Source: Pseudomonas sp. MM223
Lineage (GTDB): Bacteria > Pseudomonadota > Gammaproteobacteria > Pseudomonadales > Pseudomonadaceae
Assembly (NCBI GenBank): GCA_947090765.1
Contig: OX352322.1
Coordinates: 4,819,501 to 4,883,500, forward strand
DNA length: 64,000 nucleotides
Direction: 5' to 3'
Shown: one piece after another, positions 43,886 through 63,732 of the stretch
How the letters are laid out: each line of letters begins with the position of its first letter
How positions within the stretch are numbered: the stretch's first letter is position 1
Position numbers and translations under genes: made by a program
Notes under the pieces: generated by a model
Database searches by the model: none
What the model saw: the letters and a program-made list of their open reading frames with translations, nothing else
What the model was told of the DNA's origin: nothing

Positions 43886-44118
43886 CAAGGCAGGCTCGTG
43901 TGGCAGAGAAATCGGGTTGACCCGCCACATCGCCCTGCCAGCTGCAGGGCGCCCTTGTAGTGAATGCCATCCTTGGCAACGAGTGAGGGTCAGAGTGCCC
44001 TGAACCCGTTTGGTTCCTCCCTGGAGGTGGATGCCGTTCCCTAGGCAAGGCCTAGATTAGGGGATGGGTGTTGCGCAATTGTGTAAGGTGCAAGAACCTG
44101 AGGTTGCAATGCAGCCAT

Positions 44119-44278
44119 TCAATCATCCCGCGTCAGCACTTCCAGCAATTCGATTTCAAAGGTCAGGTCCGAGCCCGGCGGTATCGCCCCCACACTGCGC
44201 TCGCCATAACCCAAATGTGCTGGAACCTGCAGCTTGCGCTTGCCCCCCACACGCATGCCCATCAGGCCTTGATCCCAG
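44119..44278 (-). pseudogene. FKBP-type peptidyl-prolyl isomerase, 3' fragment (split by the element)
   Basis: Encodes DQGLMGMRVGGKRKLQVPAHL and on to GYGERSVGAIPPGSDLTFEIELLEVLTRDD, the C-terminal half of a small FKBP. It lacks its start and stops being FKBP at the TCCCAG core at 44273-44278. The 5' half is at 53144-53347. Joined at the core they give an uninterrupted 112-residue protein with VIKGWDQGLMGM across the join. Confidence 0.9.
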
Positions 44279-44332
44279 ATTCTTTGAATGTGACCCTGAC
44301 CCTGCTATGCTTCCCGCCATCAAGGAGGCCAC

Positions 44333-45961
44333 ATGCCGAAAGCCATCTCTTACAAACGTTTCTCCAGCGTCCGCCAGAGCGGCAACACGTCACTAGAGCG
44401 CCAGACAACCATGCTTGTTGACTGGCTACAGTGCAACCCCGACTACACGTTGAGCGAGCTAAACTTCCAGGACCTAGCCAAGTCCGGCTACCACGGTGAT
44501 CACATCAAAGAAGGTGGCGGTTTCGCGAAACTGCTTGAAGCGGTCAAGGCTGGCGCCGTGGAAGAACATGATGCTGTGCTTGTCGAAGATATCGACCGAG
44601 TTGGCAGGATGGACACGGTGGATATGTTCAGCATCATCACGCCGATTTTGAAAGCCGGTGTATCCATCGTCACGCTCAGCAATGGCGCCGTTTACAACCG
44701 AGCCAGCCTACAAGGTTCGGGTATCTACTTGCTGGTGGCACAGATCCAAGCTGCCAACCAGTATTCCGAGAGCCTGTCCCGCCGAACAAAGGCGTCGTAT
44801 CGGATACGTGAACAGAAAGCAAAGGCTGGCGAGAAGGTAAAGCGCTGGACGCCCGTCTGGCTCACCACGGATGGCGCTGTAATCGACCGTATCGCCAAGC
44901 ACGTTAAAACCGCATTCGAGCTTTACGTCGCTGGTGTAGGCAAGGCCACTATTAGCGTCAGGATGCGGGAGACCGGGGAACCCGAATTGGCGACTTGTTC
45001 CGGCCCGACCGTCGAAGGGTGGCTTCGGAACAAAACTGCCATCGGCTACTGGAACGACATCCCGAACGCTTACCCGGCGATCATCGAACCCGAACTTTTC
45101 GTACTCGCCCAGCAACGCGGTAAAGACGCCAAGACCACCCGCCCTTCCAAGACTGCGAAGCATATGCTGGTAGGACTGGTGAAGTGCGGGCATTGCGGCG
45201 GCAACTACATTATGCAAAACAAGGACGGGCGCCCACACAGCATGCGGTGCTTGAACCGGCAGCGGCTGAAGGCCCTCGGTTGCGATAACACACGGACAAT
45301 CCCCAAGCCAGTACTTGACCACATCCGCGTCAATACATCGCTAGCTGCTGTCGAAGCCGCGTTCCAGCGTCAGCAACTGACCGTCAACCAGAAACGAATA
45401 CTCGCCATCGAGGGCGAGCTAGAAACAGTTGGTCAGAAAATAACAGCGCTAATACAGCTGGTTGACGGGACCGGGGATCTAGACGAAATCACGGCAAAGA
45501 TCAAAGAGCTGAAAGCCGAGCGGGAAAAACTGAACGCTGAACATGTGCTACTGGAACGCACCGAAAGCCCGGTAGATACGTTCGGTGCTATGCGTGTCGA
45601 AGATGACTTGCTAGAGAGCGACACCGTTAAGCTGAACGCACTGCTGAAGGGTGTAGGCTATTCCATCAATGTCTTCGTTGATGGACGGATGACAGTTAAT
45701 TGGCCGAATCAGCAAGGCCACAGCTGGGCGTACAAGGGGGTCGAGCGTTCGACCGGTTACTACATACTGCAAAGCTACGACGCCAACCCTGCAACCGATG
45801 AGGAAGGCTCCATGTGGCAAGAGCATTCCCCTTTGGATGGAACGATAATGATCAACCCGAAGCCACACCTCGCTCCCAAAACTGAAGAGACGATGGCAGA
45901 GATGACCCAAGCAAGCCAGATGAAGCTGACGGTAAAAAGATTGAGCCGACACCAACCGTAA
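44333..45961 (+). CDS. large serine recombinase (integrase)
   Basis: Site-specific recombinase of 542 aa that would integrate and excise this element. The resolvase-type catalytic domain spans about residues 3-145: AISYKRFSSVRQSGNTSLERQ with nucleophile Ser11 and the arginine motif VEDIDRVGR. It is followed by the recombinase domain (residues about 180-270), a zinc ribbon (CGHCGG near 285 and further Cys near 303 and 313), and a coiled coil (ILAIEGELETVGQKI, EITAKIKELKAEREKLNAEH). It lies beside the left att core, as expected. Confidence 0.93.
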   Translation: MPKAISYKRFSSVRQSGNTSLERQTTMLVDWLQCNPDYTLSELNFQDLAKSGYHGDHIKEGGGFAKLLEAVKAGAVEEHDAVLVEDIDRVGRMDTVDMFSIITPILKAGVSIVTLSNGAVYNRASLQGSGIYLLVAQIQAANQYSESLSRRTKASYRIREQKAKAGEKVKRWTPVWLTTDGAVIDRIAKHVKTAFELYVAGVGKATISVRMRETGEPELATCSGPTVEGWLRNKTAIGYWNDIPNAYPAIIEPELFVLAQQRGKDAKTTRPSKTAKHMLVGLVKCGHCGGNYIMQNKDGRPHSMRCLNRQRLKALGCDNTRTIPKPVLDHIRVNTSLAAVEAAFQRQQLTVNQKRILAIEGELETVGQKITALIQLVDGTGDLDEITAKIKELKAEREKLNAEHVLLERTESPVDTFGAMRVEDDLLESDTVKLNALLKGVGYSINVFVDGRMTVNWPNQQGHSWAYKGVERSTGYYILQSYDANPATDEEGSMWQEHSPLDGTIMINPKPHLAPKTEETMAEMTQASQMKLTVKRLSRHQP

Positions 45962-46293
45962 CATTACCCCGCTTTTAAAACCCGGCAACCTGCCCTTTTT
46001 CCACGCAGACCATCGCCCGCATTCGAATATCGGCTGTGAACAGGGGCTGATATATCAGATGGAATGACACTAATCTAAGCCATCAGCGGCTCAGTATTTA
46101 ATGCTTCTGGCTGACCCAAAGAGAGCCACATACTAAAACCCTGAATATCAGAGGAATGTTAGACACTTCCCCTCGCCGTCGCTGGGAACTGCTCACCATG
46201 AGCATAGAGATGGCTTACCAATTACCGTAGCCCGACGCCGCTGTATGTGCTGAATTACTAACGGCCAGCCGGGCATTTAGTAAGCAAAGTAGG

Positions 46294-47538
46294 CTATGGC
46301 TTGAAATGTATAGAACTACCTAGAATCTGACTAGCAAGGCGCCCATATTTTAGCTGATACTCAAGCATCGACAGCCTTGAAATCGTATCTTTTTCATAGT
46401 CTATTATGAAATATATCGGGTGCAGAGATTGGTAGGGGGGAGCATTCTCAGCAATAACGACTCTATGCGCCCCGCTGCCATAAAGCTTTGCAGCAAAATA
46501 TATATCATTGCCACCATCGTCATTAGGGATACCGCTTATCATAACGCAATGGCAGCCTTGCGGTGAATTGCCAAAAACATCCAGCACTGCTTCCTTTCCT
46601 TCTTCGCCAAAAAAAGAAATCGGAAGATCCGGCTTCCCACTTAATATGGATTTTTTAACTTTATCAAAGGCAGGATGCCGCACATACTCATGACCCATAG
46701 TGTGAGCAATAAAGTTCACAGCAATTTTTGCTAGCGCCCGCTCAGTCTCCTGCATATCAAACGCTAACTGCATATGTATTATGGGTTTATCTATCGTCTG
46801 AGGTCTGGCCTTAGATGCGCAATTTTCTAGTGATGGCAATGTCCTTCGCACACTTCTAAGAAACGCGAGTTGATCACCTTCAGGAACTATCTTTAAAACT
46901 ACCTGCCCACCAAGACGTTGGAAAATACGTGATGATAAGACAGGGTTCGACTCATTGAACGCTTCCAACCAAATGCCGTCCTTTGGCGGGACGCCCATTG
47001 TTTCTCGCGAGATCAAATGGTAGCTATCTTCATTCCACTGATAGCTGCTTACTTCAAACTGCTTAGCTTGAATCTTATGAATTAGCTTCACGATACTTTT
47101 GCCAAGTATTGATGACAAGGACATATAGAACGCCCCTAGAAGCTCACTATCTTTAGCTGTATATTTGAATTCAGGGTACTTCAGTATAAGCTGGGCAAGC
47201 ACCACCTCTTTACCTTGTTTATCGGATTCCGACTCTAAGAACTCCCCTGACTCATCGAGAATATATTGACCCCTCGCCTCAATACCTGGCTTCGATGTCT
47301 TGCTCCCCCTATCTCTGGTTCTGCTCTGCAAGAACTTTCGACCAAGTGCTGCCGGAGAGCGCCGCATCAAGGACAGCTCTAGTTTCGAAAATATGTTGGT
47401 ATTACAATTGCCACACACCAAGTCGACAAGTAAATAATTGCTATCATCACCACCCATTCCGGCCGGAAAAACATGCTCATCCGTGAAGGGACCGTTGCTT
47501 TTGCAATATATACACGTCGACTCTTGCTTGATCCCCAT
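46294..47538 (-). CDS. HNH-endonuclease-type protein of unknown role
   Basis: A 414-aa protein. The N-terminus has an HNH-like zinc module: CIYC at residues 9-12, EHVFPAGMGG at 21-30 and CGNC at 42-45, matching the pattern of HNH proteins of the CxxC...EH(I/V)xP...CxxCN type. The remaining 350 residues have no recognised domain. The gene is clearly AT-richer than its surroundings, and it is separated from neighbours by non-coding gaps of 332 and 247 bp in which I see no gene. Cargo of this kind is often defence-related; that is inference. Confidence 0.7.
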   Translation of the reverse strand: MGIKQESTCIYCKSNGPFTDEHVFPAGMGGDDSNYLLVDLVCGNCNTNIFSKLELSLMRRSPAALGRKFLQSRTRDRGSKTSKPGIEARGQYILDESGEFLESESDKQGKEVVLAQLILKYPEFKYTAKDSELLGAFYMSLSSILGKSIVKLIHKIQAKQFEVSSYQWNEDSYHLISRETMGVPPKDGIWLEAFNESNPVLSSRIFQRLGGQVVLKIVPEGDQLAFLRSVRRTLPSLENCASKARPQTIDKPIIHMQLAFDMQETERALAKIAVNFIAHTMGHEYVRHPAFDKVKKSILSGKPDLPISFFGEEGKEAVLDVFGNSPQGCHCVMISGIPNDDGGNDIYFAAKLYGSGAHRVVIAENAPPYQSLHPIYFIIDYEKDTISRLSMLEYQLKYGRLASQILGSSIHFKP

Positions 47539-47785
47539 TACACGTCCCCCTGAATTTCCATCTTCAATAGATTTATAATTTTAGCCGCTACTTCTATACC
47601 ACGCTTCATCGTCGCTTCCTTAGCTATCTACACCCTTAATCCAGTATCGTCGGCGGGATGATTCACTGAGCATCTGGAGAGCTATTATAATATGGGGCAG
47701 CTTTTAACCCCCACGCCGATCCGCTTACTACCCATACCGGCAAATTTCAGAATATCAAGGGCAGCAAAAAGCCGCCCGAGGGCGG

Positions 47786-48022
47786 CTACGTGCGAAGGCG
47801 TTCTATCGCTGAAGTGATGGCATCAGCGTTGGCATCAAGTGCCTGTAGGCAGGTCATGGTGTTTTCGTGTGCATTTACAGACCCACGCTGCCTGACCCAT
47901 GTACTTACTTCTTCGATGGCAGCCCTCAAGGCGGTCTGGTTTATATGCAGTGTCTCAAGGGCGTCCGCTATTGCCGCGTCCCGGTCTTCCATATGTGGGT
48001 TCTCGCTGTGGGCAGAAACCAC
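47786..48022 (-). CDS. small helical protein downstream of the resolvase, unknown
   Basis: A 78-aa acidic, mostly helical protein (MEDRDAAIADALETLHINQTALRAAIEEVSTWV). It starts 11 bp after the resolvase stop, so the two are probably co-transcribed. Its true start may be the internal MEDRD. No family recognised. Confidence 0.5.
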   Translation of the reverse strand: MVSAHSENPHMEDRDAAIADALETLHINQTALRAAIEEVSTWVRQRGSVNAHENTMTCLQALDANADAITSAIERLRT

Positions 48023-48033
48023 AGCGTAGGGCC

Positions 48034-48612
48034 TTACAGCGCCTTGTTCCAGTGTCGTTTGACGGTGGCGATACCGATGTCGAGTTCGGCTGCCACTTCC
48101 GCCTGTGTCATGTTCTTGGCCTTGGCCTTCTGCACCGCCTTAGTGGTATCAACCGCTTCAGGGCGCCCCAGCTTCTTACCTTCTGCCTTGGCACGCTTCA
48201 AGCCGGACTGTGTACGCTCGATCAGCAAATCACGTTCAAACTCTGCGACAGCGCCAAGCACCTGCATGGTCATCTTGCCCGCAGCACTGGTCAGGTCTAC
48301 GCCACCAAGGGCGAGGCAGTGAACTCGGATACCGGTTGCTGCCAGTTGCTCGACGGTCTGCCGTACATCCATAGCGTTGCGTCCAAGGCGGTCCAGCTTG
48401 GTGACGATCAGCACATCACCCGATTCCATCCGTTCAAGCAGCTTCTGGAAGCCGGGACGCTCGCTGGCAGGGACGCTGCCGGAAATGGTCTCTTCGATTA
48501 CCCGGCTGGCCTGTACATCGAAGCCAGCGTTCTTAACGTCCTGGACTTGGTTCTCGGTGAACTGGTTCGACGTGCTTACACGGCAGTAAAGGAAGGTACG
48601 AGACATCGGCAT
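48034..48612 (-). CDS. small serine recombinase (resolvase/invertase)
   Basis: A 190-200-aa serine recombinase of the Tn3 resolvase/Hin invertase type, distinct from the large integrase. The catalytic domain begins [15 protein letters not shown] with Ser11 and contains [14 protein letters not shown] and [28 protein letters not shown]; a C-terminal helix-turn-helix follows ([21 protein letters not shown]). The start is uncertain: 48627, 48612 and 48606 are in frame. A res-like site lies just upstream. Function may be dimer resolution of an excised circle. Confidence 0.88.
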
Positions 48613-48648
48613 CACCCAAGGGATCATTTAACGTGGGATCATAGTAAA

Positions 48649-48736
48649 GGTATCACCATATGATGTAAACCCTATTTTGTTGATACCTATACAAGCCAGA
48701 TTTGATGGCATCGTTTAACGGTCGTTTGCTGATACC
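48649..48736. promoter_or_regulatory. res-like resolvase binding region
   Basis: Arms GGTATCA at 48649-48655 and TGATACC at 48681-48687 form an inverted repeat, and a third TGATACC is at 48730-48736, all directly upstream of the resolvase gene where res sites usually lie. The rest of the 48628-49019 gap holds a terminator and no clear gene. Confidence 0.5.
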
Positions 48737-48764
48737 AGCTGGCGCCGCTGATCTAGGCACATGG

Positions 48765-48786
48765 AAAAGCCCGCACTAGGCGGGCT
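48765..48786 (-). terminator. rho-independent terminator of the leftward operon
   Basis: Read on the minus strand, arms AGCCCGC and GCGGGCT around a 5-base loop are followed by TTTTCC. It lies downstream of the gene ending at 49020 and would end the operon. Confidence 0.75.
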
Positions 48787-49019
48787 GATTGGACGGCCCC
48801 AAATCTGGGGCGTTGGCAAAAGGTAGGAATCCCGCCCTTTATTGGCAGTGGCTGGCGCCATTTCCATACAAACTTTGTGGGATATGCAAGAAAGTGGCGA
48901 TCTGCTTAACACCCTGTAGTGCAAGTCCCCGGAAACACTGGGCTGTAGCCGTGTAGCGGCATCCAGACGGGCCGGAATGGTGGCCAACTGGATTAGATAT
49001 AGCGTTAGTTTCCCATTAG

Positions 49020-49454
49020 TTATCTGGTGGCTGCTCGTTCTGCCTTGTACGCCCAGAACTCTTCCATCGTGTGCAGGGGTAGGCCATCCCTACGCTGGAA
49101 GAAATTATGCCACTTCAATTCGTAGTCTTGCGGGGTGATCTTGTATTCCACCCGCATTGCATCAAGGTCCAGATCGGCAGGCCAGTACTTGTGCCGCTTC
49201 TGTTCAAACCACCTGTGTATGCACCCATTGGTGCCATGCATATCCACTCGCTCTACAGAGCATTTGACCAGCCCTTGTGACACCAGGGATTTAAGAGTCC
49301 GGGTCAGGTTGGCCAGATCAAAGTCACCGTAGCCCAAGTCGTCTCTGAGTACTTCCTGTAGGCGTACAGCGTTGTACGGCGGGTACAGGTTATCGGTGGG
49401 GTCAATGTGGGCGAGTGCTTCGAGCACCCGCGCCTTGTTCTTCGTCATTCTCAT
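49020..49454 (-). CDS. possible winged-helix DNA-binding protein
   Basis: A 144-aa protein whose first 70 residues look like a winged helix: NKARVLEALAHI, LQEVLRDDLGYGDFDLANLTRTLKSLVSQGLVKCSV. The remainder is basic and rich in Trp and His. The family is not recognised. It is the last gene of the leftward operon and may regulate the element. Confidence 0.6.
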   Translation of the reverse strand: MRMTKNKARVLEALAHIDPTDNLYPPYNAVRLQEVLRDDLGYGDFDLANLTRTLKSLVSQGLVKCSVERVDMHGTNGCIHRWFEQKRHKYWPADLDLDAMRVEYKITPQDYELKWHNFFQRRDGLPLHTMEEFWAYKAERAATR

Positions 49455-49511
49455 GGAGTTGTTATCGTTGTTACTGACAAGTAGCGTGGTTCATCATAGG
49501 GAAAGCCACTC

Positions 49512-51047
49512 CTACGCCACCTTCGGCAATGGTTCTGCTGCTACTGGTGGGAATTCGAGGTGTGCCGGGTAGCCTTTAAAGCCCCACTGGTCGTAGTAGC
49601 GGCCTCGATAGATCCGCTTGAAGCGGGGCTGTGCCAAGTAGTCTTGACGGCCCTTTTCGATGGCGGCGTGCAGGCAATCAAGTAAGCCTGTGCGGGCAGC
49701 ATCAAGCTGTTCAGCGGTACATAGACCAAGTGCAAGCAATGGCTGCCACACCAGTTCGGCATCTGCGTACAGAGCAGCGATGTAATTAGGCCATGTACCC
49801 AGCTTCTTGAACCGCAGTTCATCAGGTACAAGCACCGTTGGCGCCAGCGTGGCCACATCAAGCCGCTTAAGCAGGCGGGCACGTAGCAGACCCTTAGGAA
49901 TGTCTGCACCCGATAGTGCGTGGTAACAGTGCTCGGTGATGCTCTCGATCAGCAAGCGGTGGTCAGCGTCTATAAGCTGCTGGCTGGGCTTGCCCCATGG
50001 CTGCTGCCAGTTCATATAGGTCAGCGGCTGCCATTCAAACCCCTTTTGCGGCAGAAAGGCTTTGTGGCCACCATCTACTGGGCATTCTCGCTGGGCGATA
50101 TAGATGCCAAGCACCCGTACCAGACCAAGCATAAAGGTGCAGTTGTCCCGGTGACGCTGTGATGGTGATGCCGCTGCCATCCGTTCCAGCTCATCCGCAT
50201 ATACGCACAGAGATACACGGGTGTGCTTATCGGACGCAAACCTGGTGAACGAATCTTTGCCCCGCTGGTGGGCGTCCATAAGCTCTAGCTGCTCTAGCGG
50301 TAGTTGCTCAAGCTGGCCAAGTGTACAGCGGTCTTCCAATTCCCGAACTGCTGTACCCTTCTGCTGCCGGTTGTAGATTTGCCGGGCCAAGGTGTGCAGT
50401 GTGTCCAGCTTCAAGGCAGCGGATTGGGCCAGATACTCGATGAATTCTGTGCCCAGCAGGGCGCGTACCTTCTTTGCCACCTGCTGATTAGTGTGGCCCA
50501 CGGCTACTTGCCACTTCTTTTGCAGCTTGTGGGCTGGGATGCTCAGCCCCGCATCTGCTGATACGAACTTGTTACCGGCTTGCTGATTAGGTCGCCAAAG
50601 GCCGATGAACAGGTTAATTGGGTGCAGTGCTCCCACTGAGCCATCTACGCCTATACGGGCTTGGATGTGGCAGCGGTGATACACTGACTTCTGTTCATCT
50701 GGGTTGAAGCCATAGCACTTGTAGTAGCGATTATGGAACTGTTCCAGCTCGAACAATGAAGCAGTGGTGTGGGTCATCATGATGCAGACGGTATTGGCCT
50801 TGATGCACTCTCTGATGATCCACTGCCCGAAGCTGCTCTTACAGAACCGGTTGAACTGGTCTTCTATGCGGGATTGCCGCTTTGTGGCCTTGTCGGGCTG
50901 TCTTGACTTGGCCTTTCTGCAACTATCCTTGCAGAAGCGTTTGGTCTTGTCCGCCTGTTCTCGGCGTCCAACATATGAACTGTTGCAGGTGTGGCAGGTG
51001 TAACTGTAGTTACGGGTGTTGCTCTTCTTGGTGTTGCTTGATGACAT
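49512..51047 (-). CDS. 511-aa zinc-finger protein of unknown function
   Basis: The largest cargo gene. Residues 18-43 hold a Cys4 pattern (CHTC, then FCKDSC) followed by a basic stretch. Around residues 115-160, KSVYHRCHIQARIGVDGSVGALHPINLFIGLWRPNQQAGNKF resembles a degenerate HNH fold (His, Asn-Leu, Asn), though the usual DH is CH. The remainder, rich in Leu, Gln and Arg, matches nothing I know. It may process element DNA or initiate replication, but neither is shown. Its start overlaps the upstream gene by 38 bp. Confidence 0.7.
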   Translation of the reverse strand: MSSSNTKKSNTRNYSYTCHTCNSSYVGRREQADKTKRFCKDSCRKAKSRQPDKATKRQSRIEDQFNRFCKSSFGQWIIRECIKANTVCIMMTHTTASLFELEQFHNRYYKCYGFNPDEQKSVYHRCHIQARIGVDGSVGALHPINLFIGLWRPNQQAGNKFVSADAGLSIPAHKLQKKWQVAVGHTNQQVAKKVRALLGTEFIEYLAQSAALKLDTLHTLARQIYNRQQKGTAVRELEDRCTLGQLEQLPLEQLELMDAHQRGKDSFTRFASDKHTRVSLCVYADELERMAAASPSQRHRDNCTFMLGLVRVLGIYIAQRECPVDGGHKAFLPQKGFEWQPLTYMNWQQPWGKPSQQLIDADHRLLIESITEHCYHALSGADIPKGLLRARLLKRLDVATLAPTVLVPDELRFKKLGTWPNYIAALYADAELVWQPLLALGLCTAEQLDAARTGLLDCLHAAIEKGRQDYLAQPRFKRIYRGRYYDQWGFKGYPAHLEFPPVAAEPLPKVA

Positions 51048-51192
51048 TCGTTCCGCTCTCTAGGGAATCAAGCCGCATGGCAGCTTCTTCAATCAATTGT
51101 TCTACCATGCGGGTAGGGTTAATGGCGCCTGTGTGTTCCATCAAGCGAAGCAACTTCGCTTGGTGCTCAGGCCGGTATACTGAGATACGCAT
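51010..51192 (-). CDS. short ribbon-helix-helix-like protein
   Basis: A 60-aa protein beginning MRISVYRPEHQAKLLRLMEH, with a helix pair TRMVEQLIEEAAMRLDSLE. The start at 51192 has CAGGA upstream and was chosen over the longer open frame. The beta-strand plus two helices suggests a ribbon-helix-helix DNA-binding protein, perhaps controlling the operon. Confidence 0.55.
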   Translation of the reverse strand: MRISVYRPEHQAKLLRLMEHTGAINPTRMVEQLIEEAAMRLDSLESGTNVIKQHQEEQHP

Positions 51193-51328
51193 ATGGGTTC
51201 CTGCTGGAATTGTGCATGGTCGATTGGGCTGAAGCCCTAGTGCCATGCGGGATTGAGCGATTAAGGCGGACAAGTTCTATACTACCTGTGGCCTTCACCG
51301 ATGTTGCCGGGCGAGTCGGAAGGGGCGA

Positions 51329-51505
51329 CTATTTCGCCCGCTTCGTCTCTTCGGTTGGCACAGTGTTAATGAAGCACTTCACCATCCAGCTCACGAACTT
51401 GCGTACGGGCATCTTGTGCTTGCGTGCCTGGCTGCACAGCACATCAAACTCGGCAGGGGTGAACGTTAGTCGCATCCCCTCGCCATGTACGTACTCGTCG
51501 TTCAC
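51329..51505 (-). CDS. 58-aa small protein, ribbon-helix-helix-like
   Basis: Starts at a GTG that overlaps the stop of the upstream gene (GTGTGA), the mark of translational coupling. MRLTFTPAEFDVLCSQARKH then MPVRKFVSWMVKCFI resembles the strand-helix-helix of Arc/MetJ-like proteins. Another possible start is the internal ATG at 51487. Confidence 0.55.
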   Translation of the reverse strand: MNDEYVHGEGMRLTFTPAEFDVLCSQARKHKMPVRKFVSWMVKCFINTVPTEETKRAK

Positions 51506-52050
51506 ACTGCCTTACCTTCTACTGTGGCCTCTACCGGTGTGGCGTAGGCTTTAAGCAGGTCAGCCAAGGCCGCTGCTTCCTGATCTTGTTCCAATGCTGC
51601 CGCTGCTTTGGCTGCTGCTTCTGCTGCCGCTGCATCTTCTGCACGCTTTACTTGATCTACGCTGAACTTCACCTGACGCTTAGTCTCAGCAAGATTCAAT
51701 TCAAAGCGAGACAGGTCATATTCTTTGCGAGCAGACTTTGCCACTTCAGCAAGTTCGGCTTTGATGGTCTTCTCTGGCTTGCGTAGCACAGCGAAAACAT
51801 CCAGCGGTGGGTTGAATGCCAGTTTTACCAGCGTATACCCCTTCGCCATCTCTTCGAAAAGTTCCACGACGGCAGGCTCTAGAGGCTTGCTGCGTTGCCA
51901 GTGGATATGGGCCGCTTTGTCTTTGTAGTGCAGTGTCTCGCTGCCTCTGTTATAGCCATCTTGCTTGGCTGCAATCAGCTTCTGCAAGTCTTCATCAGAG
52001 TGCGAGTAAAACTCTACAACGTTAACGCCGTATTGGTATTCTGTTATCAT
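51502..52050 (-). CDS. 182-aa coiled-coil protein, unknown
   Basis: Unrecognised protein with a globular N-terminal half (MITEYQYGVNVVEFYSHSDE, HIHWQRSKPLEPAVVELFEEM) and a highly charged, Ala/Glu-rich coiled coil from about residue 100 (KRAEDAAAAEAAAKAAAALEQ). It overlaps the upstream gene by 4 bp (ATGA) and the downstream GTG start, so it is firmly in the operon. Confidence 0.6.
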   Translation of the reverse strand: MITEYQYGVNVVEFYSHSDEDLQKLIAAKQDGYNRGSETLHYKDKAAHIHWQRSKPLEPAVVELFEEMAKGYTLVKLAFNPPLDVFAVLRKPEKTIKAELAEVAKSARKEYDLSRFELNLAETKRQVKFSVDQVKRAEDAAAAEAAAKAAAALEQDQEAAALADLLKAYATPVEATVEGKAV

Positions 52051-52418
52051 GATTGCTTCCGTTTTTTGTTAGCCATATCTTTAAAGATTCTTGCTGCATA
52101 CTTTGATTGTTTGTTGTCTGCCGCTGTAACGCTCTGGGAAGGCTTTTTAGCGACCTCTCGGGCTTGGGCGATATGTTGGGCTGCCTTAGCTGCTTTCGCT
52201 TCGTTTACGCGCTTCCTATGGCTTTCTAGGTGGGTTAGTGACACTACTGTACCGGCAGATAAGATGTAGTCTTCCAGGGCTGATAGGTAAGTTAGTTCGT
52301 CTCGTGTTGCTTCGACATAATCCACAGTAGCTGACTGGGCAGTTGGTCGTTCTAAGAAGTAGCTCAGGATTGCCCCGTCTGACTTCTGCACCTCTAGGTA
52401 CACTTTGTTGCTGGGCAT
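52047..52418 (-). CDS. 123-aa basic protein, unknown
   Basis: Begins with a beta-rich part (KVYLEVQKSDGAILSYFLERP) and ends in a strongly basic tail (YAARIFKDMANKKRKQS), consistent with nucleic-acid binding. Its start codon shares one base with the stop of the upstream gene. Family not recognised. Confidence 0.6.
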   Translation of the reverse strand: MPSNKVYLEVQKSDGAILSYFLERPTAQSATVDYVEATRDELTYLSALEDYILSAGTVVSLTHLESHRKRVNEAKAAKAAQHIAQAREVAKKPSQSVTAADNKQSKYAARIFKDMANKKRKQS

Positions 52419-52618
52419 TATGCCGCTTCCTTTTGATTGGTCTGTTCTTCTTGCTCTTGAGCCATATAAAGTTGCTCAAGCTCTTCTTGTGTTGCTCGGT
52501 TGTTCTGGCGCCAAGTGCGTGACTGGCAAGTTGACCCACAGAAGCGGGTAAGTGGGCTTCTGGAATAGTGGGTTCTTCCACAGGCTTCACAGGTATTACG
52601 GCGTAGCGGTCTTTGCAT
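52418..52618 (-). CDS. 66-aa zinc-finger protein, first gene of the operon
   Basis: Cys4 pattern at residues 10, 13, 27 and 31 (CEACGRTHYSR, RFCGSTCQSRTW), the same spacing style as the 511-aa protein's N-terminus. A Glu/Gln-rich tail follows. It has the form of small phage-type zinc-finger proteins. It begins the leftward operon; its promoter must lie in the 525-bp gap to its right. Confidence 0.65.
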   Translation of the reverse strand: MQRPLRRNTCEACGRTHYSRSPLTRFCGSTCQSRTWRQNNRATQEELEQLYMAQEQEEQTNQKEAA

Positions 52619-52814
52619 ATGATATTGCCTTCAATGAATTAAGAGTTTGCAGCAGACAAAATAAACCCGTCTCTCGGGTGTGAGTTTCGGGCTAATTAAG
52701 TCTTGAGCTGTAGTGTTGCGTACCTGCGTGAGCAAGTATGGTGCCGCCCCTTGCGGGCAAGCCTATAAGTAAGTGGCCAGTTTCGCTGCCCCACTGGCCG
52801 TGGGTATAACCATG

Positions 52815-52844
52815 ATATCAAGGTGGAATTACGGATCTTGATAT
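52815..52844. promoter_or_regulatory. inverted repeat in the element's right-end leader
   Basis: ATATCAAG at 52815-52822 and CTTGATAT at 52837-52844 form a perfect 8-bp inverted repeat in the otherwise gene-free 52619-53143 stretch. It could be the operator of the leftward operon or an integrase/excision factor site. The stretch is AT-rich near 53000-53100. Confidence 0.45.
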
Positions 52845-53143
52845 GCCGGTACAACTATCCTCGATTTTCAAATCTTCAGTCATATGCCCCGGACTGACAA
52901 CGGGGTAACCCCAGTAGGACCATTCCAAGTCTAACCATGTGCTGCATCTAGGAATTGGGGACGAGAGGTATTGCGTGGGAATCGAGACACTACTCGACTT
53001 GAAGTGAATGGTAACACGAAAATCAAACCTGTCAATACATATTCACGCATTCATTGCAAGTATTTTCTGATTATTTTAGACGAAAGGTAATCAAAGCCCT
53101 GCTAAAGCCCGGTAATACGCCTTAATGGCGCATCGGATCAAAC

Positions 53144-53347
53144 CTACATATGAAAAAGCTGCTCCCAGCCCTTGATCACCCGCCCCGTGCCGATCACGCA
53201 CTGGAACGGCTTGCCGCGTGACCACGACGAGTCGAACTCGCTGCCATCGGCCAGCCAGCCGGTGTACTGGGTGGTGATCAGGGCGCCTTTGACGGCGGCT
53301 TTGCCTTCACCTTCCACCAGGTCGATGATCTGCAGTTCTTGGCTCAC
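53144..53347 (-). pseudogene. FKBP-type peptidyl-prolyl isomerase, 5' fragment
   Basis: Encodes MSQELQIIDLVEGEGKAAVK... to VIGTGRVIKGW, the first 61 residues of a 112-aa FKBP, then four foreign residues (QLFHM after the junction Glu) and a stop supplied by the element. The start is the second of two in-frame GTGs, 7 bp after TTGGAG. The FKBP core strands and the VIKGW active-site segment are present but the substrate pocket is incomplete, so the product is probably inactive. Confidence 0.9.
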
Positions 53348-53386
53348 GGGCACACTCCAATACGGGGAAACAAAGCCGCCCTTTTC

Positions 53387-54328
53387 TCAGGAATGCACCG
53401 GTTTGGCAAGCTCACGTGGCGTATCGTGCTGGCGCATCGACCACAGCACACCGCCCACCACCAGCACGATTGCCGCGGCTTCCAGCAGGCTCGGCCCGGC
53501 CTGGCGCCAAAGAAAGGCATACAACAGCGCGAACAGCGTTTCGAACACGATCAGTTGCCCGCTCAAGGTCAACGGCAGGCGTTTGGACGCGGCGTTCCAC
53601 AACGCCATGGCCAGCCACGAGCCCAACACTGCGCAACCCAGGCTGGCAGCCCAGAACAACCACCAGCGCGACATTGGCGCCTCCACCTGGAGTTGCTGCG
53701 GTTGCCACAGTGCCAGCCCGGCGACCATAAGCAGGCTCGCCAGGCCAGTCATCACCCCGCACAGCACCGACCACTGATGGCTGTCGAAATGGCCGCACTG
53801 TTTCAGGTAACGGCTGTTCTGCACGGCATACCAGGTCCAGCAGGCCAGTGCCGCCAGTGCGTAGAACAGGCCCATCAGCTTGTCGCCGATATCGCCGGGG
53901 GCAAAGGCGAAGGTTTCCAGGTTGATGCACAGCATGCCGGCCAAAATCAGCGCCAACGGGCCGACCAGCCGCGCCAGGGGCACCGCGCCGCTGTCGTTGC
54001 GGCCGTACAGGGTGATAGTCAGCGGCAACACGCCAACGATCAACGAGGCCGGGGCAACACCCAGGCGCTGGATCGCCGCCACCAACAACACGAAGTACAC
54101 CAGGTTGCCGATCACGGCCAGGCGCAGCAGCATCCACGCATCGCGTGCCGTCAGCTGGCGCAACTGGCGCGCCATGGGCAGGGCCAGCAGCAGCGAAATC
54201 ACCCCCACCATCAGGTAGCGCACGCTGCTCAGCAGCATCGGGTTGAACTCGGGCAGCAGCTCGGGAACCATCAGCACCATGCCCCATAACGCACCGGCCA
54301 TGCCGGCGTACATCACACCGCGTTTCAC
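53387..54328 (-). CDS. EamA/DMT-family transporter
   Basis: A 313-aa membrane protein with about ten helices and two EamA domains: GALWGMVLMVPELLPEFNPMLLSSVRYLMVG at the start and LTLSGQLIVFETLFALLYAFLWRQ near the end. Unrelated in detail to the EamA protein at 37651. Likely a metabolite exporter; substrate unknown. It resumes the ordinary chromosome after the element. Confidence 0.87.
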   Translation of the reverse strand: MKRGVMYAGMAGALWGMVLMVPELLPEFNPMLLSSVRYLMVGVISLLLALPMARQLRQLTARDAWMLLRLAVIGNLVYFVLLVAAIQRLGVAPASLIVGVLPLTITLYGRNDSGAVPLARLVGPLALILAGMLCINLETFAFAPGDIGDKLMGLFYALAALACWTWYAVQNSRYLKQCGHFDSHQWSVLCGVMTGLASLLMVAGLALWQPQQLQVEAPMSRWWLFWAASLGCAVLGSWLAMALWNAASKRLPLTLSGQLIVFETLFALLYAFLWRQAGPSLLEAAAIVLVVGGVLWSMRQHDTPRELAKPVHS

Positions 54329-56876: not shown

Positions 56877-56984
56877 TTCGCAGTAGGCCTCAGCACACCC
56901 GCCAAGTAGGGTGCTTTTTGGCCTACCAACCCTTGCGTTACCCACGCCACTGTAACTGCCAAGGCACCCTTGACAAACCACGGC

Positions 56985-57006
56985 CTAGTATTTTTACCAG
57001 TTGTTG
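56985..57006 (+). promoter_or_regulatory. 22-bp surface-locus motif, copy 1
   Basis: CTAGTATTTTTACCAGTTGTTG, the most diverged copy, ends 69 bp before the start at 57076. Consensus of the four copies is CTAGTATTTTTGCCAGGTTA plus CA. Confidence 0.5.
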
Positions 57007-57075
57007 AGGTCAATCTCACCTATTAACTTAAGTTTCCGAGCTAGTCATTCCGTTCCACGCTGAGGAGACTGTCAC

Positions 57076-58875
57076 ATGAGCACTGACCCCATTACGATCA
57101 CCACCAAGACCAAGAAGACTAAAAAGACCAAAACAGTTACCCGCGCTTCCACGGCCACGACTACGGCTGCCGGTAATTCTCCAGCCAACGCCGCATTGGT
57201 CCCTGGCGCGCCGAAAATTCTTGAAGCAAACTATCAAGACGAGCCAACAGGCTTGGGATATTTAGACCTAAAGCTGAACCCCCAAAAAAATCTAACTTTC
57301 TACACAGCGTACTATGAGTTCAACACAGTCGACGTAATCACCGTTTTCTGGAATGGCAAATTCATCGATGAGTTCATAGCCGGCAAAAACGGACATGATG
57401 CCATCCCGCGACTAATTACAGCAGAAACATTCACTATTGACTATGACCCTGGCTACTACAAGCTTCAATACTCGATCGTACCCACACCAAACCCATCGAA
57501 GAAAAAATCGACAAAAAAACAAGCCCCCATCTACTCACTTGAGGCCGATATATTTGTCAAAACCTCAATCCCCGGCGACCCTGACGACCCCACGCTAGAC
57601 CCTAACAACCCAAATAACAGAAACCCAAAACTTAAAGACCCCATATTTACACCAAACCCAGTCCTAGAAAGCACCGACGACCTTATATGCACCATTCCGA
57701 AATGGCCAAACCAAAGCGCCTATGATACGGTAACTATCAAAGTTGGCCCGTACAGCCAATCTGTAAACGTTAACGATGCAACCAAGGATGTAACCATCAC
57801 CATTACCGACGTCCGATCAAAGGTCCCTGCCGGCAGGGTTGATGTTACTTATTCCATTATAGACTGGGCCCGCAACTACTCGTTTAATTCACCGATCACC
57901 ACGCTGGACATGGATTATGGTGCTGGAGCCCCACCTCGCCCAGACTTCATCATCGATGGGGAGCCCGCCGACACTGTCAACTTGTCGCTCATCGCGATCG
58001 ATACACCAATCACCGTAGCGGTGAACTATTTCGACGGCCTGGAACGTGGCCAGCAAGTAGTCATGGAGGTGTACGGCTGGAAAGCCAATGGTGAAAAAGT
58101 TGAGTTCAGATCCCCAGCCAAAACAGTAGGCGACCCCCACGCCGGACTAGAATTTGAGATCCCCTATAACACGGTGAACGAGCTGCAGAACAGGGAAATC
58201 CGTGCCGCTTACATCATCGGAAAACAACTCTCCAGAATAAAAGTCGCCGAGGTAAAGCATGGTCCTTACAAAGCGCCCCACCTGACCGAATACGAAGGCG
58301 ACGAACTGGACTTCATAGATTACCTCGAAAGAAATGGCAACCGGTCGCTAGAAATTATTATCCCCCCTAATCCAAACACAAGATATTGGCACGATGTAGA
58401 ATTCATAGCCACCGGATCAAACTACGAAGAGTACAGGTTCAAGCCGTTCCTGATTAACCATGGAACCTTCACCATACCGTACCTGCTTGCCGCAAGTACC
58501 GATAAGGAATTCGACTTCAAGATAAGATACGAGCTTGGCTCGATTCGCTCTGAAGTGCGCACCTATAAAGTATTAGCCACACGCCCTGACCACCCCGTAC
58601 TTAGCGAGGCTGAAGTGGAATTCGAAGACGGGAAATGTCATGTACGCTGCAACGTATTGAACGAAGCTACTTTCTCAGGCTTCAATGCTCACTTCTCTAT
58701 CGGCAATACACATTGGTGGACACCTGCTCTGCCTCATTTATCCGAAAAACTAGACGCACTGATCCCCGATAACTGGATAGAACAATTCAAAGGCAACACC
58801 GTAATTATAACCATTGCAGCTTTACGTGGCACACGTACCGTGAGCTACGCCCCACCGAGAACTGTAACACTTTAA
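57076..58875 (+). CDS. large Ig-like repeat protein A, unknown function
   Basis: A 599-aa protein with a basic Lys/Thr-rich N-terminus (TTKTKKTKKTKTVTRAS) and no Sec signal. The rest is mainly beta-strands in repeats of about 100 residues, like bacterial Ig-like modules (VDVTYSIIDWARNYSF, FKIRYELGSI). A DPDDPTLDPNNPNNRNPKLKD stretch recurs in altered form in the protein at 61678, so the two are paralogues. Base composition is AT-richer than the core genes. The promoter motif is upstream. Function unknown; surface or phage-tail-like adhesion is conceivable. Confidence 0.7.
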   Translation: MSTDPITITTKTKKTKKTKTVTRASTATTTAAGNSPANAALVPGAPKILEANYQDEPTGLGYLDLKLNPQKNLTFYTAYYEFNTVDVITVFWNGKFIDEFIAGKNGHDAIPRLITAETFTIDYDPGYYKLQYSIVPTPNPSKKKSTKKQAPIYSLEADIFVKTSIPGDPDDPTLDPNNPNNRNPKLKDPIFTPNPVLESTDDLICTIPKWPNQSAYDTVTIKVGPYSQSVNVNDATKDVTITITDVRSKVPAGRVDVTYSIIDWARNYSFNSPITTLDMDYGAGAPPRPDFIIDGEPADTVNLSLIAIDTPITVAVNYFDGLERGQQVVMEVYGWKANGEKVEFRSPAKTVGDPHAGLEFEIPYNTVNELQNREIRAAYIIGKQLSRIKVAEVKHGPYKAPHLTEYEGDELDFIDYLERNGNRSLEIIIPPNPNTRYWHDVEFIATGSNYEEYRFKPFLINHGTFTIPYLLAASTDKEFDFKIRYELGSIRSEVRTYKVLATRPDHPVLSEAEVEFEDGKCHVRCNVLNEATFSGFNAHFSIGNTHWWTPALPHLSEKLDALIPDNWIEQFKGNTVIITIAALRGTRTVSYAPPRTVTL

Positions 58876-58886
58876 CCTCACCTCCT

Positions 58887-58920
58887 ACTGGGTAACCACG
58901 CAATTGTGGTGATACCCAAA
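58887..58920 (+). terminator. hairpin after gene 57076
   Basis: TGGGTAACCAC and GTGGTGATACCCA pair over most of their length around CGCAATT. There is no T-run. The remaining 347-bp gap to the autotransporter holds motif copy 2 and no gene. Confidence 0.45.
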
Positions 58921-59049
58921 CCTGACCCTGCAAGGATTTGCCTTCGCTCCTGCGGCCTGATAATCAACCTTCTGCTTGGTTGTTGGGCCGCAGCTTATGA
59001 ATAATTGCACCCCTTAAAACAAATGCAGTTCTCGCCAACCGCCTGCAAC

Positions 59050-59071
59050 CTATCATTTTTGCCAGGTTACA
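59050..59071 (+). promoter_or_regulatory. 22-bp surface-locus motif, copy 2
   Basis: CTATCATTTTTGCCAGGTTA followed by CA, 154 bp before the autotransporter start. Confidence 0.55.
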
Positions 59072-59225
59072 TCCCGGCCCCCTTGGACCATTGTACGCAC
59101 GAGGCAGGGAGCGAAGCCAATGCTCACACTATTCAAATCAGATTTTTCCTACATAAATTCCGGAAAATTACTCGTATTGTTTTGCGCTCAAATTTCTTCC
59201 TCAATACCCATATCCGGAGTTCATG

Positions 59226-61451
59226 ATGAAAAGAACCTCCCGCTTATCGGCGCGCGCACACTCCAAGTACGCCAGCTTGCTACTGCTCAGTTGCGCCTCT
59301 TTCGCCGCCCCTGCGGCTATCGTAGCCCCCGGCAACAGCCACACCGTGGAAGAAGGCGACCCGGCCGAGTTCTGGGAGGCCAGGTTTCGTGCAGAGTTGA
59401 TCATGAACGCAAACAGCGAGGCCACTTCACAGGGTAGCAGCGCAAACGCGGCCATCGTTCTGACGGGTAAAAGCCGCCTGATAGCCAAGGGCGCGACCAT
59501 CACTGCCGAAGGTACAGGCATTGTCATTAACGACAGCAGCGCTGAACTGACAGATGGGACCGTTGTGACGGCAACCGATAACAACCCCGGCAACATGAGG
59601 TCTGGCAGTGCGCTGGCCATGTTTGAAGGTAGCGCTACCGTGCGTGATTCAACGCTCAACGGTGAGCGACACGCCATCGCTGTCTTGAGCGACACGCGGG
59701 GCTTGGGCCGCCCCAGTGTGGAATCTGTTCTGGACATTTCCGGCAGCCGGCTGATCTCCACCACTGGCAGCGCCATCTATGTAGGCAAGCTCAATGCCAG
59801 AGAAGAACAAGCCGCCAAAGCCAACATCACCTTGAGAGATGGCACCGTTGTATCGGCCAGCAATGGTACCTTGCTGGAAGTGCAGGATGATTCGCTCGTC
59901 GATCTGGCCATCGAAAACAGCGATATCACAGGAAATATTATCTCCGCTGATGCTGCGACGACTAATGTGTTACTGAAACGCAATGCCATCCTGCGGGGTG
60001 CGATGAATGGCGTCGACAGCGTGGGCGTCGATACCACCGCCAGCTGGGTCGTGACCGCAGATTCGTCCATCGACCAACTGCGTAACAGCGGTACCGTGGC
60101 GTTCTCTGACGGCGAAGTCGGGCGCACCCTCACCGTGCACGGCGACTATGTGGGCGATAACGGTACGCTGGTTTTCAACTCGGTGCTTGGGGATGACGGT
60201 TCGTTGACCGACAAGCTGATCGTCGAAGGTGATACCAGCGGCAGCACCTCGGTAAAGGTCAACAACTTGGGTGGCAGCGGTGCCAAAACCCTCAACGGTA
60301 TCGAGCTGATCACCGTGGGCGGCAACTCAGATGGTAAGTTCACCCAGGCAGGCCGTATTGTTGCGGGCTCCTACGATTACAAACTGATAAAAGGAACGGA
60401 CGGCAATTGGTACCTGAGCAATGAATTGTGCGCTCCAGACTGCGAAGAACCGGGCCCAGGGCCGGGGCCTGACCCAGAGCCTGATCCAGTGCTGATCATA
60501 CGCCCGGAAGGTGGTGCTTACGCGGCCAACCTGTATGCCATGAACACGCTGTTCGATGCCAGTATTGGCCAACGAGGTGGCGATACCGTAGGTGCTGGCG
60601 CCCAGGCAAATGACGGCCATTCGAGCAACTTGTGGATGAAGAACAGCGGCGGGCATTCGCGCGCCACCGATGCCAGCGGGCAGCTCAACACCCATAGCAG
60701 CCGCTATGCCTTGCTGCTGGGCAGCGACCTCATGGGTGGCACCCTGCAGGATGGCAGTGCCTGGCGCGCCGGCGCGTTTGCCGGTTACGGCTACAGCAGC
60801 GGCAGCAGCACGTCGCAAATCACCAACTACCATGCCGGCCACCAGGTCAAAGGCTACACCACGGGTGTGTACGGCACCTGGTACGCCGATGGCAGCAGTG
60901 ACCAGGGCTTGTATACCGACGCCGTGCTGCAATACAGCTGGTTCGACGCGCAAGTCACCGGCGAGGGCGTGGCCAAGGAAAGCTACACAGCCAAGGGCGT
61001 TTCCACATCGCTTGAAGCCGGTTATGTGTTGCGCAACGAATTTGGCGAAGGCCATGCCTGGTACCTGCAACCCAAGGCCAAAGTGACGTGGTCGGGCGTG
61101 ACGCCAGACGACCACCGCGAAGACAATGGCACGATCGTTTCTGCCCAAGGCAGCGATACCCTCAGCATCAGCGTGGGAGCGCGGGCCTACCTGCAACTGG
61201 ACACCCACAGCAGCGACAGCTTCAAACCCTTTGTGGAAACGAACTGGATACACAATAACCGCCAGGCCGGTGTTTCGCTGGACGGCGTAAGTGTAAGCCA
61301 GGCAGGCACCCGCAATATTGGCGAGTTCAAGGTGGGTGCCGAAGGGCATATCAACCGCAACCTCAGCGTCTCGGCATCGCTGGCCCAGCAAGTGGGCAGC
61401 GACAGCTACACCGACACGGCCGCATCGCTGGCCCTGCGCCTGGCATTCTGA
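59226..61451 (+). CDS. autotransporter (type V secretion), pertactin-like
   Basis: An outer-membrane autotransporter of about 741 aa. The start MKRTSRLSARAHSKYASLLLLSCASFAAPAA is a signal peptide; the ATG at 59226 fits the GGAG site better than 59223. The passenger (to about residue 405) is a beta-helix with repeats such as SRLIAKGATITAEGTGIVI and SRLISTTGSAIYVG. A Pro-rich linker (EPGPGPGPDPEPDPV) leads to a pertactin-type barrel of about 310 residues ending in LALRLAF, with terminal Phe. The passenger is short and no protease triad is visible. Confidence 0.92.
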   Translation: MKRTSRLSARAHSKYASLLLLSCASFAAPAAIVAPGNSHTVEEGDPAEFWEARFRAELIMNANSEATSQGSSANAAIVLTGKSRLIAKGATITAEGTGIVINDSSAELTDGTVVTATDNNPGNMRSGSALAMFEGSATVRDSTLNGERHAIAVLSDTRGLGRPSVESVLDISGSRLISTTGSAIYVGKLNAREEQAAKANITLRDGTVVSASNGTLLEVQDDSLVDLAIENSDITGNIISADAATTNVLLKRNAILRGAMNGVDSVGVDTTASWVVTADSSIDQLRNSGTVAFSDGEVGRTLTVHGDYVGDNGTLVFNSVLGDDGSLTDKLIVEGDTSGSTSVKVNNLGGSGAKTLNGIELITVGGNSDGKFTQAGRIVAGSYDYKLIKGTDGNWYLSNELCAPDCEEPGPGPGPDPEPDPVLIIRPEGGAYAANLYAMNTLFDASIGQRGGDTVGAGAQANDGHSSNLWMKNSGGHSRATDASGQLNTHSSRYALLLGSDLMGGTLQDGSAWRAGAFAGYGYSSGSSTSQITNYHAGHQVKGYTTGVYGTWYADGSSDQGLYTDAVLQYSWFDAQVTGEGVAKESYTAKGVSTSLEAGYVLRNEFGEGHAWYLQPKAKVTWSGVTPDDHREDNGTIVSAQGSDTLSISVGARAYLQLDTHSSDSFKPFVETNWIHNNRQAGVSLDGVSVSQAGTRNIGEFKVGAEGHINRNLSVSASLAQQVGSDSYTDTAASLALRLAF

Positions 61452-61511
61452 ACCTGGCATGCACTGGGCTTTCCAGTGCATCCCACCACTTCCTGACAGC
61501 ACTGCCGGCTC

Positions 61512-61549
61512 ACGCGAACTAGTAATTTTGCCAGGTTACAAGTTCGCGT
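61512..61549. promoter_or_regulatory. motif copy 3 held as the loop of a 9-bp stem
   Basis: CTAGTAATTTTGCCAGGTTA plus CA at 61519-61540 is flanked by perfect arms ACGCGAACT (61512-61520) and AGTTCGCGT (61541-61549). The whole lies 60 bp after the autotransporter stop and 128 bp before the next start, so it could also be the terminator of one gene and operator of the next. Confidence 0.55.
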
Positions 61550-61677
61550 TTTATTACGACCATGAAGCAGCAAACGCTACCACCCGAGATAACAGGTGTA
61601 GAACTTGTCGCACTATGCAATGACAGGGTAAAGCGCTCCACCGTAATTGAAGCCCACGCAGACACAGGAAATTCAAC

Positions 61678-63693: not shown

Positions 63694-63732
63694 AAACTAA
63701 CGCCTGACGTGTACAGCAGGCACCTTGAAGGT

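Follow-up and report, generated by a model that had tools for sequence, protein, structure and literature searches.

PLEs, the satellites of the lytic phage ICP1 in Vibrio cholerae, encode a tape measure, a chaperone and sometimes a baseplate hub and give rise to chimeric tails; in 2026 they were described as the first satellite family with a known ability to manipulate tails (PMC12987554). That paper also mentions predicted tape-measure genes (tmp) in other putative satellites, including cf-PICIs. The PLE nicking enzyme NixI acts against the phage genome (PMC12409358), and PICMIs are small satellites of virulent vibriophages packaged as concatemers (PMC10803314). The present analysis concerns an 8,890-bp element of Pseudomonas sp. 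MM223 located at 44275-53164 of the window, i.e., of the whole 64,000-nucleotide stretch analysed (assembly GCA_947090765.1, contig OX352322.1, positions 4,819,501 to 4,883,500). This element is probably a minimal, stripped member of an unnamed PLE-like satellite family of Pseudomonas that rides lytic myophages. Its reading as a small parasite of phages, and not as a phage, a plasmid or a conjugative element, follows from its larger relatives, which carry tail pieces of lytic phages; since the window copy has no tail genes, we infer its own life cycle.

The element is bounded by two copies of TCCCAG, the attL core at 44273-44278 and the attR core at 53163-53168. Its GC content is 0.518 compared with 0.613 in the left flank and 0.632 in the right flank. 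The right flank was matched in 15 of the 23 other genomes searched, and the left and right flanks were contiguous in all 11 relatives for which loci were made and inspected (L054-L064). In these empty sites the left flank aligns up to about 44278 and the right flank starts at about 53159; in the seven displayed sites the sequence is TGGTCCCAGCCC or differs little from it. The 6-bp repeat by itself could be due to chance, and integration was accepted because of the empty sites in relatives. The interrupted gene encodes an FKBP-type peptidyl-prolyl isomerase, of which an N-terminal stump of 69 amino acids is left at 53144-53353; the stump matches solved FKBP/PPIase chains (best E 2.9e-15). As for a tRNA target, no tRNA was found in the window.

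In P. putida W15Oct28 (L029, on one contig with L072), the corresponding FKBP site is occupied by a related element that is inverted relative to the window element and whose integrase is 66% identical to that of the window. The integrase-proximal attP arm joins the left half-site in the window and the right half-site in W15Oct28, and the comparison of the two elements reduces the shared core bases to TC. Read from the integrase side in the same frame, the window element has GA at the centre of attP and the W15Oct28 element has TC. In serine integrases, the central dinucleotide determines the orientation of insertion. The opposite attP centres and the opposite orientation fit this rule, and the crossover is therefore placed at TC, probably at 44273-44274 in attL, where the flank ends align to the intact sites of relatives, and at 53163-53164 in attR, as judged from the intact sites and from W15Oct28. 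Both a large serine recombinase and a site-specific insertion with a short core are present, as in serine-integrase integrative elements, and the stretch is a genuine site-specifically integrated mobile element in the FKBP gene.

The hallmark protein of the element, p511, is encoded on the minus strand at 49512-51047. Its relatives were found in 23 of 298 genomes of the genus Pseudomonas and in 3 of 293 genomes from the order, the own genome being included in both counts. A scan of genome contigs gave 10 p511 loci with named hosts, three of them duplicating loci already in the set: P. entomophila 6C6 (p511 86% identical), Pseudomonas sp. R5(2019) with two loci, CM27, RIT-PI-S, RIT-PI-q, P. juntendi BML3, P. 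kielensis MBT-1, P. putida W15Oct28 and P. mosselii SC006. Neither p511 nor the second core protein, p182, was found in 50,697 phage records, and viral scans with the p511 groups A5 and A7 gave nothing. This collection also contained no DNA match to the window element and no close homologues in a named phage, which leaves standing the original prediction of an undescribed type. Among 72,556 plasmid records p511 occurs in one, pA6H2.

The locus comparison comprised 35 p511 loci, the window included. Loci from the same contigs as L027, L029 and L030 (L070, L072 and L074), repeats (L082-L084), the contig G583, which is 94.8% identical to G584, and the short loci L002-L026, which cover the same places as L027-L049 and the window, were dropped before this count; G418 and G480 from the order-wide search lie outside it. 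The 35 loci are not fully independent, since L046 and L049 come from one genome and L066 and L067 from another. Small zinc-finger reading frames that share the finger of p511, and are labelled p511 on some maps, were excluded from the p511 counts; p511 is broken in L038, and L069 is truncated at the contig end. The integrase is of the large serine type in 20 loci and of the tyrosine type in 13, and two loci (pA6H2 and L081) have none. In the compared sequences it is thus p511, and not the exchangeable integrase, that marks the Pseudomonas family. The original prediction of a satellite-like or defence-carrying element agrees with the phage tail genes and the defence cargo of the relatives. Its use of a compact serine-integrase element as the defining type had to be given up, because the operon is also found with tyrosine or distant serine integrases and next to other flanking genes, a finding that the prediction itself had named as refuting.

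Families of the window's proteins recur in these loci as follows, the window being counted each time: p182 in 30, p87 in 20, g78 in 12, p123 in 9 and p58 in 7. The zinc-finger protein, p182, p511 and the resolvase form a core that recurs as swappable modules with many integrases. Two p511 elements were observed in one genome in two cases (L046 with L049, and L066 with L067 in Pseudomonas sp. R5(2019)), so p511 elements are not mutually exclusive. Flanking gene families are common to five of the loci that have tyrosine integrases (L032, L034, L035, L040 and L048), which suggests an insertion hotspot. The p511 family is widespread in Pseudomonas and apparently unnamed; among the matches listed in a literature search covering neither preprints nor most subscription journals, no publication was recognised as describing it. 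The putative satellites with predicted tmp genes in PMC12987554 could include its relatives.

The connection with lytic phages arises from tail genes. Nine of the 35 loci contain a member of the tape-measure family within the p511 gene cluster; in L045 it is divided between two open reading frames. A protein of 759 amino acids in L041 passes the Pfam tape-measure family TMP_3 (53.6 bits against a cut-off of 41), and its relative in L036 lies slightly under the cut-off at 37.9 bits. The tape-measure profile also caught the coiled-coil p182 of L081, which was left uncounted. None of the tail-chaperone candidates located 5' of the tape measure (L036, L040 and L048) matched a Pfam model. Three IMG/VR contigs of 24,974, 25,084 and 25,189 bp (collectively G583-G585) carry p511, p182, a resolvase, a tape measure and a serine integrase about 43% identical to that of the window. 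G583 has exact direct end repeats of 97 bp, a 99% repeat of 133 bp lies close to the ends of G584 (L076), and the gene order of G584 is a circular permutation of that of G585. These repeats and the permutation led to the contigs being read as circular DNA.

The tail block of the 25-kb contigs most closely matches that of lytic myophages of the Otagovirus/Pakpunavirus type. In the lytic Otagovirus VCM, the genes for the tape measure (787 amino acids), Dit, plug, hub and spike are contiguous. The hubs of G584 and G585 are 49-50% identical to that of VCM, with 307 amino acids in all three, and the plugs (113-115 amino acids) are 56-59% identical; the corresponding values are 47-48% for the spike, 38-41% for Dit and 38-42% for Neck1. 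The tape measures of G584 and G585 have 752 and 785 amino acids; that of G584 is 29% identical to the VCM protein over 194 residues, and that of G585 is 48-54% identical to that of G584. A tape-measure profile built from the integrated and L081 copies matches the VCM protein at 9e-22. The sheath, wedge, chaperone, major head protein, portal and large terminase of VCM had no match in the 35 loci. A PHROGs scan of 20 proteins of G585 and 8 of G584 (small uncertain reading frames excluded) detected an anti-repressor and no capsid, portal or large terminase. A 140-residue protein of G584 (L076:129-551, minus strand) gave a weak small-terminase-like PHROGs score (E 0.0024). Phage satellites can use small terminases of their own. 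The gene order differs among the 25-kb elements, L081 and VCM, and the plug gene is located amid core genes, features that speak against a recent chimera. L081 (IMGVR_UViG_2627853747_000007), a predicted viral contig of 15.9 kb, shows a third gene order and carries p182, tape measure, p511, hub pieces, spike, Dit and resolvase.

The p511 protein consists of 511 amino acids with an N-terminal zinc finger, an HNH-like finger and a helical C-terminal part, as seen from conserved residues and an AlphaFold2 model (23 sequences, mean predicted local distance difference test, pLDDT, 83). Residues C18, C21, C39, H127, N145, N154 and R289 are invariant in 24 of 24 sequences, and position 43 is occupied by Cys in 22 of them and by His in the other two. 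The HNH (His-Me finger) layout consists of a conserved His, an Asn and a third Asn or His in a strand-strand-helix order. In the model, strands 123-127 and 146-150 and helix 151-157 follow this order behind the zinc finger, and H127, N145 and N154 would supply the three residues within 123-157. Among the BFVD viral structures p511 had non-significant matches only, several of them to proteins of the HNH, endonuclease VII or zinc-finger kind and extending over about 35-50 residues. The p511 protein is regarded as an HNH-type protein and a probable nuclease. The p182 protein (51502-52050, minus strand) is modelled from 26 sequences (pLDDT 87) as a small alpha-beta domain with a single helix of 78 residues after it and contains a coiled-coil; its fold had no significant match in the PDB.

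Exchange of modules is best seen by comparing the window element with two relatives. The element of P. juntendi (L069) has the p66-p123-p182-p58 block in common with the window at 81% DNA identity over 51313-52931, with proteins 67-89% identical and a resolvase 98% identical. Its integrase is 31% and its p511 only 36% identical, the latter against 67-98% for the zinc-finger, p123, p182, p58 and resolvase genes that it accompanies. The element of P. entomophila (L065) shares p87-p511 with the window at 87.6% DNA identity over 49509-51295, and its p182 and resolvase are 48% and 32% identical. The L069-like and L065-like blocks meet between p58 and p87, and p87 tracks the p511 allele across elements. 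As far as these sequences go, the modules of the family swap independently, and the mosaic identities mean that p511 alleles have been exchanged within otherwise similar operons. Such exchange may be what is expected for an arms-race protein, other causes being possible.

The small serine resolvase of the window (48034-48627, minus strand, 197 amino acids; Pfam Resolvase 2.6e-39) is preceded at its 5' side by a res-like site at 48620-48736, in which inverted and direct repeats (GGTATCA/TGATACC and the arms GGGATCA/GGCATCG) make up a candidate multi-part res site. L067, L069 and L070 are homologous to the resolvase cassette as far as 48735-48738, the edge of the res-like repeats. A small resolvase-type recombinase was found in 34 of the 35 loci (31 serine, 3 tyrosine), a raw count without a background rate near random genes. 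In L036, L040 and L068 a tyrosine recombinase of 184-203 amino acids replaces the serine resolvase, and in L044 the small recombinase is located 6 kb from p511. The replacement of the serine resolvase by an unrelated tyrosine enzyme suggests that multimer resolution itself is the selected trait. In L038, fragments of a p511 remnant lie next to a resolvase 97% identical to that of the window.

The remaining genes agree with the layout of the original prediction, whose parts are all present at the positions it gave: the TCCCAG copies, a 542-residue serine integrase, the small resolvase with its res-like site, an HNH-type protein and an operon of seven genes read leftward. The integrase (44333-45961, plus strand) is transcribed rightward and matches Pfam Resolvase (6e-17), Zn_ribbon_recom (2.5e-10) and Recombinase (4e-5) and the PHROGs integrase family phrog_95 (3.6e-54); it is 24-30% identical to phage integrases in the 8 matches listed of 33. 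All other genes are oriented leftward, in the order p66, p123, p182, p58, p87, p511, p144, resolvase, g78 and the gene of the 414-residue HNH protein, the first seven forming the operon. Its head, p66 (52418-52618), has a zinc-finger-like CxxC...C...C pattern by eye and relatives 43-79% identical at the same place in other elements; it had no Pfam match at E<=0.01. The operon also encodes the small proteins p123 (52047-52418) and p58 (51329-51505). The small p87 (51010-51273) overlaps p511, looks like a ribbon-helix-helix protein by eye and had no Pfam or PHROGs match. The variable p144 (49020-49454) recurs in one other locus of the 35 (L071, 59%) and had no Pfam or PHROGs family match above threshold. 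The small conserved g78 (47786-48022), located 3' of the resolvase, belongs to phrog_12397 (6.3e-20), a family of unknown function.

Scans with Pfam, PHROGs and PADLOC covered 10 of the 11 proteins of the window element. No capsid, relaxase, conjugation or Rep model passed in these ten, as the original prediction had stated, and only weak sub-threshold scores were obtained, such as a TraC-like 14.3 bits for the 78-residue protein against a cut-off of 27.7. Portal and terminase matches were likewise missing from the Pfam and PHROGs results. No AlpA or primase model appeared at E<=1 in the ten proteins, nor for p66 at E<=0.01, and Rfam gave nothing at E<=0.5 across 44000-53500. PADLOC had no convincing match, the resolvase giving one weak CARF-like score; the reading of the element as a defence island only was rejected on this ground.

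The slot adjoining the integrase appears to hold cargo, often defence genes in relatives and an HNH protein in the window. The latter (46294-47538, minus strand, 414 amino acids) matches HNH_5 (1.9e-5; 24.9 bits, slightly under the cut-off of 27.5) and phrog_35254 (1.1e-21), had no PADLOC match and no relative among the other 34 loci. Ten larger cargo proteins, chosen by hand in variable regions of the loci, were scanned; four matched defence models, namely a type IV restriction enzyme (L031), an OLD/Gabija-like ATPase (L039), a type III-like methyltransferase (L044) and an FRG protein (L035), and six matched none. Outside the element, a second low-GC stretch lies at 56950-63700 of the window (GC about 0.48-0.49 at 57-59 kb); it begins with a 599-residue protein without a Pfam match, followed by a reading frame of 742 codons that is autotransporter-like by eye and another of 671.

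The life cycle can be pictured as follows. Infection by a lytic myophage would trigger integrase-driven excision, and the excised circle would replicate and be packaged in the helper particle. An element of 8.9 kb without recognisable head-resizing genes would fill the helper head as a concatemer. In the new cell the resolvase would reduce multimers to monomers, and the integrase would reinsert one copy. The p511 protein may act on DNA, either like NixI of PLE, by nicking the genome of the helper, or by initiating replication of the element itself. Tail-carrying relatives might assemble chimeric tails in the manner of PLEs, with the window copy relying wholly on the tail of its helper.

The same observations could arise from an integrating plasmid or mobilisable island, in which p87-p511 would be a regulator and a replication initiator, the resolvase would keep the circle monomeric, movement would occur by a conjugative helper or transformation and the tail genes would have been acquired later by some relatives. 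Small regulators adjoin plasmid Rep genes and resolvases are typical of plasmids, to which correspond the overlap of p87 with p511, the tracking of the p511 allele and the presence of p511 on pA6H2. However, this plasmid already has RepB and is the sole plasmid record with p511, the window element has no relaxase, and tape measures belong to the p511 cluster in nine loci; an origin of this kind is considered unlikely. It could also be supposed that two kinds of elements share modules, the tail-bearing ones being satellites and the small ones, such as that of the window, defence or selfish islands that exchange p511, p182 and the resolvase. The extensive module swapping, the lack of a tape measure in 26 of the 35 loci and the defence genes in the cargo would be in line with this, but p182, p511 and a resolvase, in most cases together with an integrase, are arranged similarly in small and large elements, which makes such a division quite improbable. 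A decayed prophage remnant could account for the low GC, the integrase with the HNH protein and the tail genes of relatives; it is very hard to reconcile with the compact recurring architecture, the mostly open core reading frames in 35 loci and the absence of p511 and p182 from the phage records, and is given hardly any credence.

Several points weigh against the satellite reading itself. No tape measure was found in the window element or in 25 other loci of the 35, and the excision, replication, packaging and transfer of the window element, as well as the role of p511, are conjectural. The tape measures of the elements are distant from that of VCM, with five of nine loci matching it at E<=1e-3 (25-45% identity over 44-194 residues) and those of G585, L036, L040 and L048 having no direct match. 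G585 has no end repeat, and the 25-kb contigs are metagenomic. On pA6H2 (L001; 5,999 bp; Pseudomonas sp. ANT_H6) the p511 relative occurs with RepB, a resolvase and RelBE-type genes. No Pfam model, HNH included, matched p511 at E<=1; its fold gave nothing significant against the PDB, and its BFVD matches were non-significant. The small-recombinase figure is a raw count, no resolvase was found in L037, and in the 20-kb comparison loci with unmapped ends a few neighbours may be host genes.

The satellite reading can be extended, tentatively and with less than even confidence, to Pseudomonas-wide satellites of lytic myophages that possess an HNH-zinc-finger protein and a near-obligatory multimer resolvase, travel as concatemers and have larger forms with a substitute set of tail-initiation genes. 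This set would comprise tape measure, Dit, plug, hub, spike and Neck1 and serve to make chimeric tails, and p511 would be a new type of HNH nickase serving replication initiation or attack on the helper and diversified by an arms race. If true, this would be a second tail-manipulating satellite family besides PLE, found in a tractable genus and having a larger tail set together with small tail-less members. It would show which tail parts a satellite must supply, a question testable in laboratory pseudomonads, and would explain small Pseudomonas islands without visible transfer genes.

Among the known systems, the Otagovirus/Pakpunavirus-type phages, similar in their tail block, differ in being phages of about 90-100 kb with heads, and p511 and p182 are not found in the phage collection. 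The I55-type Pseudomonas islands, which are moved by jumbo phages, likewise lack transfer genes of their own and carry defence cargo; unlike the window element with its FKBP site, serine integrase and no AlpA match, they have a tmRNA site, IntY and AlpA (PMC12595487). The PICMIs of Vibrionaceae, as described in PMC10803314, resemble the element in small size, in having no recognised capsid-remodelling gene, in a virulent helper (presumed for the window element) and in defence cargo, whereas of their core of integrase, AlpA and primase the last two were not found in the window element. With PLEs the family shares an integrase, a probable nuclease, a tape measure and baseplate hub in some members and a probable lytic myophage helper. 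It differs in the host genus, in the missing tape measure of the window element, in the near-universal resolvase and in the more extensive set of tail genes (Dit, plug, hub, spike and Neck1) of the 25-kb relatives. Being likened to PLEs by their description and not by sequence or descent, the p511 family is most likely PLE-like in its way of life.

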